Part shown: positions 30,367 to 34,679 of the stretch, piece after piece
Layout of the letters: each line of letters begins with the position of its first letter
How positions within the stretch are numbered: position 1 is the stretch's first letter
From: an uncultured Clostridia bacterium
Lineage (GTDB): Bacteria > Bacillota > Clostridia > Oscillospirales > UBA644
DNA: 46,239 nucleotides
NCBI GenBank assembly: GCA_948443805.1
Contig: CAOJUB010000013.1
Location: forward strand, 1-46,239
Direction of reading: 5' to 3'
Notes under the pieces: generated by a model
What the model saw: the letters and a program-made list of their open reading frames with translations, nothing else
What the model was told of the DNA's origin: nothing
Databases searched by the model: none
Made by a program: the position numbers and the translations under genes

Positions 30367-30379
30367 AAAAACAGGCCGC

Positions 30380-30482
30380 AAAAAACAACGCCGTCGGGAA
30401 TTTTGAACGACAATCAAAATTCCCAGCTGTTTCTGTGCTCGAAACACAGAAACAGCTGCCGGAACCCCGGCGGCGGCGTTGT
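30380..30482 (-). ncRNA. Cloverleaf RNA, copy 1 (intact)
   Basis: About 96 bases. On the minus strand a closing stem CAACGCCG/CGGCGTTG (30481-30474 with 30393-30386) encloses: a hairpin GCCGG-GGTT-CCGGC (30471-30458), a perfect 13-bp hairpin (30457-30425, loop TTTCGAG) and a perfect 11-bp hairpin (30424-30396, loop TTGTCGT). A run of six T follows the closing stem (30385-30380), as in an intrinsic terminator. A consensus promoter places the start at about 30482, right at the closing stem. It has no ORF. I know no named family with this layout. Confidence 0.7.
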
Positions 30483-30488
30483 GGATAT

Positions 30489-30517
30489 AGTATATCATAT
30501 CGGTGGGCTGATGTCAA
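30489..30517 (-). promoter_or_regulatory. Sigma-A promoter of cloverleaf RNA copy 1
   Basis: TTGACA (30517-30512), 17 bases, TATACT (30494-30489) on the minus strand. The predicted start is 7 bases further on, at the first base of the RNA closing stem. Confidence 0.85.
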
Positions 30518-30605
30518 GATTTCCTGCGAACAAGGGGTGTTTTTCTGCAAAATTGGCTTTCCCCGGCAGGAAAAGGAGATTTTTTTGTCTTTTTCCCAAA
30601 ACCTC

Positions 30606-30634
30606 TTGACAATCCCTTCCATCTGTGCTATACT
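30606..30634 (+). promoter_or_regulatory. Plus-strand promoter facing cloverleaf RNA copy 2
   Basis: TTGACA at 30606-30611, 17 bases, TATACT at 30629-30634. The transcript would begin near 30641 and read through copy 2 on the opposite strand. The next plus-strand gene is 850 bases away, so an antisense or independent RNA is as likely as a gene leader. Confidence 0.65.
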
Positions 30635-30664
30635 GACAATAGAAATCAGTCCTTCGGCGGGGAC

Positions 30665-30763
30665 AAAAAACAAACGCCGGCGGGAAGTTTGAACGACAAT
30701 CAAAATTCCCGGCTGTTTATGTGCTAGAGACACAGAAACAACAACCGGAACCCCGGCGGCGTT
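30665..30763 (-). ncRNA. Cloverleaf RNA, copy 2 (decayed)
   Basis: Same layout as copy 1: closing stem AACGCCG/CGGCGTT (30763-30757, 30679-30673), the CCGG-GGTT-CCGG hairpin (30756-30745), a hairpin with loop TCTCTAG (30739-30715) and a hairpin with loop TTGTCGT (30710-30682), then six T (30670-30665). Both long stems contain a single mismatch and no good minus-strand promoter lies in front. It looks like a silenced copy. Confidence 0.55.
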
Positions 30764-30978
30764 ATCGCGTTGCCATGAATTTGCAAAGGGGTTTTTCCGG
30801 TTTTTCTATCGATTGTTGCCGATCGGATAGCTGTGTTGGGGGCGCAGGTGTCCGGTTTTATTTTTTTATATAGGGTGTGAATGCAAAATGTCGGATCCCG
30901 ATCGGAGTAAAAATCGCATAGAATAATCGACTGTTGGCTGCCGGAAGCCCCTTTCTGCAAGGGTTAAATCCTTCCGGG

Positions 30979-31070
30979 CAAAAGAAAAGCCGTAGCCGAC
31001 GTAAGAGACGACAACTCTTACGCCGGAACGACAGGGTTGCTAGAGACAACGCCTGCGTTACTTCTACGAC
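30979..31070 (-). ncRNA. Cloverleaf RNA, copy 3 (divergent stems, same loops)
   Basis: Minus strand, closing stem GTCGTAG/CTACGGC (31070-31064, 30995-30989) with one G-U pair that is a C-A clash on the plus strand, which fixes the RNA strand. Inside are an interrupted 8-bp hairpin with loop TCTCTAG (31055-31032), the conserved GTTCCGG (31029-31023), and a perfect 8-bp hairpin CGTAAGAG/CTCTTACG with loop TTGTCGT (31022-31000). A TTTTCTTTTG tract follows. Stem sequences are unlike copies 1 and 2 while the loops are the same. Confidence 0.7.
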
Positions 31071-31076
31071 GGAATG

Positions 31077-31105
31077 ATTATACCATATTTCTCCCCATTT
31101 GTCAA
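31077..31105 (-). promoter_or_regulatory. Sigma-A promoter of cloverleaf RNA copy 3
   Basis: Perfect TTGACA (31105-31100), 17 bases, TATAAT (31082-31077). The start would be at about 31070, the first base of the closing stem, as for copy 1. Confidence 0.88.
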
Positions 31106-31488
31106 GGGGGGCGGCGGTATAAAAAACGTTTTACAGAAGTAGTTGTGCAGTCGATAGAGGAATGAATATACGACGACAGGGGAAGCCTTCTTTGATCGCT
31201 TCTTTCGTATGCCGGGCGGTTTTTCGCCCGATAGTTCCACAGCCTTGTTGTTCATAAGCTTCTGTTTCAGGTTGTCCGGAAGTTTAACTGGCCCGGCGGT
31301 GAAGCCGTTTTTCTGCGGCGGGCGCCCTCTCAGGCGGAGAGAGCTGCCTTCCTCGGAAGAGCGGCCGAGCCGGGTGATAAAGGATTTCCTCTTTTTTTGG
31401 GGGAAGTCTTGCAAATGTGCAGGCCGCAGGGGATGCGGTCTGTCTGTTTTTTAGGCTTGTGTAAAACAAAAGGACAGGAGGTTTTGGG
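31106..31488. other. Gene-free stretch upstream of the 162-residue protein
   Basis: It contains small inverted repeats such as GGGCG-GTTTTT-CGCCC near 31215-31231 but no ORF with a ribosome binding site and no promoter I can support for the gene at 31489. A minus-strand open frame here has no initiation signal. Confidence 0.4.
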
Positions 31489-33072: not shown

Positions 33073-33774
33073 TCAGGAGATCATCCGTTCCTTCATCTTT
33101 TCAATGATCTTTTTTTCTTTTCTCGAAACCTGCACCTGCGTCATTCCCATCAGTTCGGCCGTCTGTTGCTGGGTCTTGCAAAGAAAATAGCGCAGCGAAA
33201 TCAGCTGTTTTTCCTCCGGCAGAAGGGCAGAGATTCCGTCTTTAAGCGCCAGATGGTCCATCTGTTTGTCATCGGTGGTGCTGATCGTGTCGGAAAGCGT
33301 TGCCGATGAGTCGCCGGCAATCGGCGCGTCAAGGGAAACCGGGTGGTTGCCCGCTTCCAGCGCTTCGGGGATATTTTCAAGCGGAATGCCGGTTTTTTCC
33401 GCAAGTTCGCTTAAAGTGGGTTCCCGTTCGTTTTTGGAAAGAAAGGTTTCCCGGGCTTTTTGCAGTTTCATATATTGTTCGCGGAGCGTCCGGCTGATTT
33501 TTACGCTGCCGTTGTCCCGGAGAAATTTTTTGATTTCCCCGGCGATGACCGGAACCGCGTAGGTCGAAAACATCACGCCGCGTTCCAGGTCGAAATTCCG
33601 CAGCGCCTTTAACAGACCGATCGAACCGATCTGGGCGAGGTCTTCGTATTCAACGCCGCTGTAAAGAAACCGTTTGGCCACCGAGAGAACCAGCCCGGTG
33701 TTTTGGCGGATGATTTCGTCTTCCACGTCTTCGCCCTGCTTCAGGCGGGAAAGAAGCTCTAAATTCTGATCCAT
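33073..33774 (-). CDS. sigF: Forespore sigma factor SigF
   Basis: 233 residues. Region 2 (GLVLSVAKRFLYSGVEYEDLAQIGSIGLLKALRNFD and FSTYAVPVIAGEIKKFLRDNG), region 3 (REPTLSELAEKTGI) and region 4 with the helix-turn-helix QQQTAELMGMTQVQVSRKEKKI. Third gene of the spoIIA operon, where the anti-sigma factor and its antagonist precede it. SigF starts forespore gene expression after asymmetric division. The GAGG before ATG 33774 and the 10-base gap to spoIIAB fit the standard operon. Somewhat shorter than the 255 residues of B. subtilis. Confidence 0.95.
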   Translation of the reverse strand: MDQNLELLSRLKQGEDVEDEIIRQNTGLVLSVAKRFLYSGVEYEDLAQIGSIGLLKALRNFDLERGVMFSTYAVPVIAGEIKKFLRDNGSVKISRTLREQYMKLQKARETFLSKNEREPTLSELAEKTGIPLENIPEALEAGNHPVSLDAPIAGDSSATLSDTISTTDDKQMDHLALKDGISALLPEEKQLISLRYFLCKTQQQTAELMGMTQVQVSRKEKKIIEKMKERMIS

Positions 33775-33784
33775 ACAAACCTCG

Positions 33785-34210
33785 TCAAAGGGCTTTTTCC
33801 ATGGTCAGCGTGGTTCCTTTGCCCGGTCTGGAAACCACCTTCAGCTTGTCCGTAAAGGTTTGCATAATGGTAAAGCCCATGCCGGCGCGGTCGGCGTTCC
33901 CGGTAGTGTAAAGGGGTTCCATAGCTTTGTGGATGTCGGGGATTCCCACCCCTTTGTCCTTCACCACAATTTTCAGCGTCTTTTCTTTCAGCAGCGAAAC
34001 TTTCACATGGATAATTCCCGGTTCGTTTTGATAGCCGTGGACCACGGCGTTGGTAATGGCCTCCGAGATGACGGTTTTGATTTCGGCTAACTGCTCGATG
34101 GTCGGGTCGGTCTGCGAGGCAAAAGCCGAAACCGCCATTCTGGCAAACCCTTCGTTGATCGATTTGCTGGGGATTTTCATTTCAAAAAAATTAAGTATTT
34201 CCCGTTTCAA
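33785..34210 (-). CDS. spoIIAB: Anti-sigma F factor, serine kinase
   Basis: 141 residues from TTG 34210 with AAAGGAGG ten bases upstream inside the end of spoIIAA. GHKL kinase motifs: N-box SEAITNAVVHGYQ, G1 VKDKGVGIPD and G2 AGMGFTIMQTF. It binds and inhibits SigF and phosphorylates SpoIIAA. The start codon is the rarer TTG, which lowers translation relative to its neighbours in several Clostridia operons. Length matches the family (about 146). Confidence 0.95.
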   Translation of the reverse strand: MKREILNFFEMKIPSKSINEGFARMAVSAFASQTDPTIEQLAEIKTVISEAITNAVVHGYQNEPGIIHVKVSLLKEKTLKIVVKDKGVGIPDIHKAMEPLYTTGNADRAGMGFTIMQTFTDKLKVVSRPGKGTTLTMEKAL

Positions 34211-34212
34211 GT

Positions 34213-34524
34213 TTACACTTCCTCCTTTATTCTGACAAACCGGTCAAGACCCGCCATCAGAAAAATATTTTTTGCGGATTTCGGCAGGGAACACAGGGTT
34301 ACTTTGCCGCCGGCGGCGTTCATCAGTTTATACCGCCCTAAAACCAGCGCGATGCCGCTGCTGTCGCAGAAGGTCACGCCGCTGAAGTCCAGGACGGTTT
34401 CTTCCGGCTCGGTTTTTCGTATGATTTCATCGATTTCTTTCCGGAGAAGCTCGCTGGAATGGTGGTCGATGTCTCCGCTCAGAAAAATGACCGTTTTTTC
34501 TTTTTTTGTCTGATATTCGATCAT
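34213..34524 (-). CDS. spoIIAA: Anti-anti-sigma factor
   Basis: 103 residues from ATG 34524 (AAAGGAG upstream); an earlier in-frame start would add a highly basic tail without a binding site. STAS domain with the phosphorylation motif FCDSSGIAL, Ser56 the likely phosphosite. Unphosphorylated it binds SpoIIAB and frees SigF. It is the first gene of the operon. The SigH-type promoter expected in front was not found by eye; the region is filled by T-rich sequence and then the 40-bp repeats. Confidence 0.93.
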   Translation of the reverse strand: MIEYQTKKEKTVIFLSGDIDHHSSELLRKEIDEIIRKTEPEETVLDFSGVTFCDSSGIALVLGRYKLMNAAGGKVTLCSLPKSAKNIFLMAGLDRFVRIKEEV

Positions 34525-34679
34525 TCTTTTTCTCCTTTTTTGTTTTTTTTTGATCCTTTTTTTGTTTTTCAGGGCTGTCTTTTTCATGGAGGGGGTGCTG
34601 CTTTGGTTTCCGGTTGATTTTTCCCCTCTCTTTTTTCCGCGTTTTTGTGAGCCTTGTAACAGGCCTGCTTTTGAGAGGT

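Follow-up and report, generated by a model that had tools for sequence, protein, structure and literature searches.

A family of two differently folded RNAs that share hypervariable loops in gut Clostridia, with a predicted antisense partner

Introduction

Convergent, overlapping RNAs characterize par of pAD1, the type I toxin-antitoxin system of fst RNA I and RNA II, and toxin-antitoxin pairs made of RNA only also exist. Other bacterial RNAs occur as multi-copy siblings: sibling small RNAs (sRNAs) such as LhrC of Listeria and Qrr of Vibrio normally hold the seed and vary elsewhere. The C4 antisense RNA of P1/P7 and the CI RNA of P4 are small antisense RNAs that pair through two variable segments. 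For c4 RNAs, Proteobacteria and phages are the listed carriers (PMC2864571), and diversified RNAI/RNAII loops give compatible origins (PMC9458437). A survey of the human microbiome has contributed thousands of candidate structured RNAs (PMC8040213).

Here we describe a locus in 46,239 nucleotides of DNA from an uncultured Clostridia bacterium (the window), at which an RNA that we call alpha is followed by two copies of a second RNA, beta, the nearer of which is covered by a predicted antisense RNA, gamma. Like ColE1 RNA I/RNA II, these RNAs place short loops on multi-stem molecules that would form a sense-antisense pair, and divergence of the loops would make copies in one cell orthogonal: loops of 6–8 nt are complementary in cognate pairs and divergent in non-cognate ones, and facing promoters and terminators, read as consensus matches, are conserved and predict transcription from both strands of one segment, the ColE1 arrangement. 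The differences are that the module is chromosomal and intergenic, with many copies per genome; that neither replication gene nor primer was found with it and it is absent from plasmid records; and that it possesses a second, differently folded sense RNA (alpha) with the same loops. Despite the like design it is not a member of the ColE1 family. The layout of predicted convergent, overlapping RNAs also recalls par of pAD1, but the module is RNA-only and no toxin ORF was found in it. As with LhrC and Qrr, the paralogues are both tandem and dispersed, with their own promoters and exposed loop seeds; unlike in those siblings, it is the loops that evolve fastest, and they agree only within a locus.

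Results

Two different RNAs at one locus

The first-pass annotation of the window recorded three elements of one layout on the minus strand, and three elements are present there, between 31105 and 30378 (Table 1). A single layout holds for copies 1 and 2; copy 3 is another type of RNA, without the small CCGG hairpin. Copy 3 (alpha, about 90 nt) consists of a closing stem, GTCGTAG/CTACGGC, hairpin A with the loop TCTCTAG and hairpin B with the loop TTGTCGT, whereas copies 1 and 2 (beta, about 105 nt) are four-way cloverleaves in which the CCGG hairpin is extra relative to alpha. Alpha and beta are two different RNAs. The exchange of stems between copies 1/2 and copy 3, previously offered as compensatory evidence, loses that meaning: these stems are not homologous. 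The same applies to GTTCCGG, described as a single constant motif, which in copies 1 and 2 makes up the end of the loop and the 3' arm in the small hairpin and in copy 3 spans the bases of two stems (homologues of copy 3 read GTTCGGA or GTTCGAC in its place); the differing order of hairpin and motif in copy 3 is thereby explained.

The loops of beta2, TCTCTAG and TTGTCGT, match those of the window alpha exactly; those of beta1 are TTTCGAG and TTGTCGT. Across the 46 kb of the window, TTGTCGT or T[TC]TC[GT]AG in a loop closed by at least four pairs occurs only at these three places. Folding z-scores are −8.8 for copy 1 (minimum free energy of beta1, −61.2 kcal/mol), −3.8 for copy 2 and −6.2 for copy 3 with its full closing stem, and no shuffled sequence folded as well as any of the three. 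Copies 1 and 2 are tandem duplicates (89% identical) whose agreement mostly reflects recent descent. A promoter scan found no recognisable minus-strand promoter for beta2, and neither ARAGORN nor Rfam found a tRNA in the window.

Table 1. Features of the window locus (positions in the window; promoters are consensus matches).
Feature	Position	Strand	Evidence or remark
Alpha RNA (copy 3), three-way junction: closing stem, hairpin A, hairpin B	30982..31069	-	covariance model R2, 84.7 bits; alignment of 31 alphas
Alpha promoter, TTGACA-17-TATAAT, extended -10	31077..31105	-	consensus match, 12/12
Alpha loop A, TCTCTAG	31040..31046	-	
Alpha loop B, TTGTCGT	31008..31014	-	
Beta2 RNA (copy 2), four-way cloverleaf	30664..30766	-	covariance model R3, 73.7 bits
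Beta1 RNA (copy 1), four-way cloverleaf plus T6	30378..30480	-	covariance model R3, 89.7 bits
Beta1 promoter, TTGACA-17-TATACT	30489..30517	-	consensus match, 11/12
Convergent promoter, TTGACA-17-TATACT, reading through beta2	30606..30634	+	consensus match, 11/12; would drive predicted gamma
Predicted antisense RNA gamma	30641..30860	+	extent inferred from promoter and terminator
Antisense terminator, hairpin then T run, between alpha and beta2	30840..30853	+	
Block D1, conserved, directly after alpha (CCCGGAAGGATTTAACCC)	30961..30979	-	homologues read CCCGRAAGRTAACTCC
Block D2, downstream of alpha	30926..30933		
Block U1, conserved, upstream of alpha (CAGTTAAACTTCCGG), inverted relative to D1	31276..31290	-	sequence comparison
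Block U2, upstream of alpha	31148..31155		

Distribution of the family

Homologues were reached by covariance models, not by blastn: copy 1 searched against 59 relatives and phages, and the module of locus L085 against plasmids and phages, gave no real homologue by blastn. The model built on copies 1 and 2 detected three units in one genome, from a different genus within the same family, arranged as two loci with an alpha-type RNA first in each. A second model, made from three alphas, extended the range to a further bacterial family within the order (G338 with 11 alphas, G185 with 7, G194 with 4, G826 with 3 and G892 with 1). CANRVI came from a pattern scan across 85,000 genomes, and a model of beta recovered remote betas from four additional families in the order (G177, G102, G336, G094, G293). 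The family stands at 31 alphas and about 45 betas from gut Clostridia, carriers including Candidatus Geddesella, Candidatus Avispirillum and other Clostridia MAGs; class-wide sampling yielded no member outside the order. Matches of the first model in G058, G057 and G037 (20–26 bits) were set aside, and the one inspected, in G058, is an unrelated hairpin. Collecting homologues by their pair of loops, as the first-pass annotation had proposed, did not work: a search of 394 genomes of the order matched ten, and the matches outside the module's own locus were judged to be chance because loops are not conserved between loci.

The absence of an Rfam family was borne out. At the gathering threshold Rfam 15 has no match in the window, and in homologous loci it recognises only tRNA, an FMN riboswitch and an S10 leader, all outside the modules; sub-threshold scans of the window and nine loci gave nothing coherent. 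Alpha/beta is an RNA family absent from Rfam. An unnamed prediction among those of the microbiome survey (PMC8040213) may overlap it.

These searches bear on the suggestion that alpha and beta are C4-like immunity RNAs: antisense repressors of phages or other elements that silence incoming relatives, with the loops as immunity groups. Like C4, they are multi-stem RNAs with two variable pairing segments, and their patchy distribution, with several copies per genome in differing contexts, would be in keeping. However, the C4 model (RF01695, c4-a1b1) found no match at E up to 10 in the window or up to 3 in nine loci; viral contigs gave five pattern matches, all of which score as chance, and none to beta; and phage and plasmid records contain no family member. 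There is no ant-like operon – indeed no protein operon recurs beside the loci, most of which have unrelated neighbours – and, in further contrast to C4, the loops are common to two RNA types and the complementary strand is the antisense of the locus itself. We regard a C4-like function as distinctly unlikely. Candidate targets of the C4 kind were sought and rejected, both near the loci (no cis enrichment) and elsewhere in the module's own genome.

Selection on the folded RNA

The claim of a structured RNA family with compensatory stem changes holds when alphas are aligned with alphas and betas with betas. Among the 31 alphas, whose alignment was fitted to the model and is thus biased towards structure (28 of the 31 sequences were not used in building it), 98.1% of pair cells are standard, double changes occur in 18 of 31 pairs and 84 cells carry changes on both sides against 18 in shuffles; pairing falls to 36–50% when partners are slid. 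For 24 betas, aligned with MAFFT without structure and scored on their own consensus fold, 95.6% of cells are paired, with double changes in 15 of 31 pairs and in 65 cells against 17. On the sense strand G-U exceeds A-C by 109:11 in alpha and 97:14 in beta, an excess showing that the folded molecule is the RNA of that strand.

Promoters, which like terminators are throughout identified as consensus matches, agree with the sense direction of both RNAs. TTGACA with a 17-nt spacer precedes 30 of 30 alphas that have upstream sequence, each in the form TTGACA-17-TAnnnT with an extended -10, and the corresponding element of nearly all betas is TTGnnn-17-TATAAT or closely similar.

Hairpins with conserved stems, dispersed as repeats of which many lie at contig ends (G338, G185), and flanked, in the case of alpha, by the inverted U and D blocks, might instead act as folded single-stranded DNA, serving as sites of recombination or transposition in the manner of attC or IS200/IS605. 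Sites of that kind account poorly for strict promoters and T runs and for a strong G-U excess on one strand, as expected for RNA; moreover it is the loops, not the stems, that diversify, with matching between alpha and beta. We give this explanation very little credence.

Loops are hypervariable between loci and matched within them

The constancy of the loops noted at first is a property of single loci: loops are common to the RNAs within a locus, but between loci they are hypervariable, and are the most variable part of the RNAs. Among the alphas of G338 – where whole alpha-to-beta units are 80–94% identical – loop A shows 0.60 differences per site against 0.10 for the rest, about sixfold. 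When each alpha is compared with the first beta to follow it (with loop boundaries and pairs assigned manually), loop A is identical in 11 of 20 loci where 0.7 are expected (the maximum in 100,000 permutations being 6), and loop B in 13 of 20 where 1.5 are expected. Matched alpha/beta loops include TTTATGC/TTTATGC, TTGATCC/TTGATCC, TTGTTTC/TTGTTTC and the 6-nt TGGCTG/TGGCTG. The stems that close them are unrelated (GTTG/CAAC in alpha, ATGTG/CACAT in beta), which makes gene conversion of 7 nt an unlikely cause; the natural reading is selection for one shared partner. Remote tandem betas also share loops (CTTAGTC twice in L176, CTTGCCA twice in L178).

Matching has exceptions. The A loops are mismatched in L090, L097, L109, L125 and L126 despite both promoters being intact, and in loci with two betas behind one alpha, loop A of the second beta is often different even within the predicted reach of gamma (L182, L179). 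Some alpha-beta pairs, for example the mismatched L090, L109, L125 and L126, could have been misjoined at repeats in assembly. All loci come from draft genomes, mostly metagenome-assembled, and in multi-copy genomes contigs often break inside the module.

The variation also speaks to the proposal that self-complementary tetramers in the second loop (CTAG, TCGA) allow kissing dimers. CTAG and TCGA are absent from most homologues, whose loops (TTTCGTC, TTTGCTG, TTTATGC, TTGATCC, TTGTTTC and others) are mostly not self-complementary. To judge from these loops, palindromic dimers are unlikely, and kissing with the antisense strand of beta fits better.

Several loci show loop changes of other kinds. 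At three positions (L084:9365, L113:3187, L100:1016) the loops differ by a single base, always an A in alpha against a G in beta; a G-U pair would accommodate this if the antisense of alpha paired with beta. A second alpha, with other loops and no beta of its own nearby, lies downstream of beta in L085 (8623-8711), L084 (8703-8791) and L113 (2546-2634), and the A loop TTTACGG is common to alpha1 of L113 and alpha2 of L085, as if loops had swapped position. The L101 array (G185:C13) comprises one alpha and four beta-like units with unmatched loops and is apparently degenerating; a decayed alpha with its own D block (L087:1458-1800), upstream of an intact module, suggests tandem duplication and decay.

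A predicted antisense RNA over beta

Behind beta, on the opposite strand and in most homologues at the position seen in the window, a promoter agrees with the consensus at 11 or more of 12 positions in 30 of 45 cases and at all 12 in 21 of 45 (0.3% and 0.02% of shuffled windows, respectively); behind alpha the same scan reaches 11 in only 3 of 31. Most betas without such a convergent promoter are followed by another beta that has one. Besides the window, antisense terminators lie between alpha and beta in L085 (9106-9131), L103 (2915-2876) and L104 (9202-9171). Promoter and terminator together lead us to predict an antisense RNA, gamma, over beta. Its predicted folds include a B' hairpin in five loci and an A' hairpin in three, and it is predicted to fold less well than sense beta. 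The G-U excess of beta indicates that selection acts on its fold in the sense direction, which we count against the gamma model.

Predicted gamma of the window carries CTAGAGA and ACGACAA, the complements of both alpha loops. The beta2 that it covers matches alpha exactly, and in the uncovered beta1 the A loop has diverged. A search of the window genome for exact complements of the two loops (one order, spacing up to 30 nt) found them only opposite beta2 and alpha, on the antisense strands; loop A complements are not enriched in the 900 nt around alpha (0.29 against 0.26 in controls for 6-mers). For eight loci of G338, A-loop duplexes between alpha and its cognate gamma average −5.8 kcal/mol, against 0.06 for 56 non-cognate pairs. 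Also against the gamma model, the antisense promoter is absent from L095 and L100, whose A loops are identical and one base apart, respectively; the exceptions to loop matching given above count against it too.

The main rival explanation is that alpha and beta are sibling sRNAs, redundant in trans, whose loops are seeds for the same mRNAs with locus-specific targets; gamma, if made, would be a sponge. Free-standing, strongly promoted and terminated multi-copy RNAs with short exposed loops common to alpha and beta are what such siblings would look like. But conserved targets should fix the loops, and loop A changes fastest even between near-identical copies; the window genome has no further exact two-loop complement in the tested order and spacing; and the facing promoter behind beta is left unexplained. 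We therefore think sibling sRNAs unlikely, if the most serious of the alternatives.

An antisense promoter over a sense RNA, in many copies with copy-specific loops, could also be drawn as a toxin-antitoxin system, type I or RNA-type, in which alpha or an extended transcript is toxic and gamma is the antitoxin. Inspection by eye of a 7-locus alignment revealed no conserved small ORF, and one clade has a possible ATG in hairpin B of alpha, which the window and both G002 loci lack. This seems to us improbable, slightly more so than a C4-like function.

Two observations concern the antisense side of other loci. A divergent antisense terminator left of U in L085, with a candidate in L087, hints at another leftward transcript; and a conserved hairpin-like block, GGATCTGACAAAAGATTCACATCC, stands before the antisense terminator in most f20 loci (for example L087:2240-2270).

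Discussion

We favor, with a probability of about 0.5, the reading that this is a module of RNA alone, acting through kissing loops in the manner of ColE1, and that its copies diverge in their loops to avoid cross-talk. From what is observed – the folds, the matched hypervariable loops, and the layout of promoters and terminators – we infer transcription, kissing, the direction of control, and orthogonality as the selective force. The convergent promoter would make gamma as an antisense RNA of roughly 220–290 nt over beta, or about 470 nt where two betas are spanned. Gamma could form a full duplex with beta, but would reach alpha, the likely effector, only via the two complementary loops, starting by loop-loop kissing; beta, or the beta:gamma ratio, would then set how much gamma is left free for alpha, so that the three RNAs may constitute a small titration circuit. 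Since the gamma of one copy could attack the alpha of another, selection would favor duplicated copies in which alpha and beta change both loops jointly, giving orthogonal specificities.

More tentatively, and at somewhat worse than even odds, we suggest that the modules represent an undescribed chromosomal, protein-free class in which two folds carry one hypervariable two-loop code, read by an antisense RNA and rewritten after duplication. If so, numerous mutually orthogonal groups of RNA recognition would coexist in a single genome as a natural, multiplexed system of kissing loops, and the module might be a selfish or self-recognition element built of RNA alone. The structured family itself has an unusual signature: its loops outpace its stems yet match across two folds. 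Work on RNA-RNA specificity has so far leaned on plasmid copy control and engineered variants; the family offers about 20 natural, apparently orthogonal loop pairs, with up to 11 alpha copies per genome, and prompts one to ask what role a multi-copy module made only of RNA has in gut bacteria, and why its copies need private codes.

Sequences flanking the module

The U and D blocks on either side of alpha are inverted complements, and from one genome to another they vary together (ATCGACTG/CAGTCGAT in the window, AATAAATCG/CGATTTATT in L104, ATAGACTGACA/TGTCAGTCTAT in L085). Their order, U1-U2-alpha-D1-D2, would give crossed pairing; no clear common fold emerged when alifold was run on these flanking regions.

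One divergent gene recurs beside the module, in four loci only (L085:9646-10743, L113:3677-3955, L104:7448-8188, L121:5472-6641), with 36% identity between two bacterial families; two copies show a weak match to a zinc ribbon, and just before the ribosome-binding site of the L085 copy sits a leftward terminator, attenuator-like. A remote beta (L173:187-291) lies just upstream of a gene that, as read from the sequence, is relB/dinJ-like and encodes an antitoxin (453-728), probably by coincidence. In two different families the module is within about 5 kb of the spoIIAA-spoIIAB-sigF operon (33073-34587 in the window; L095:1808-3395).
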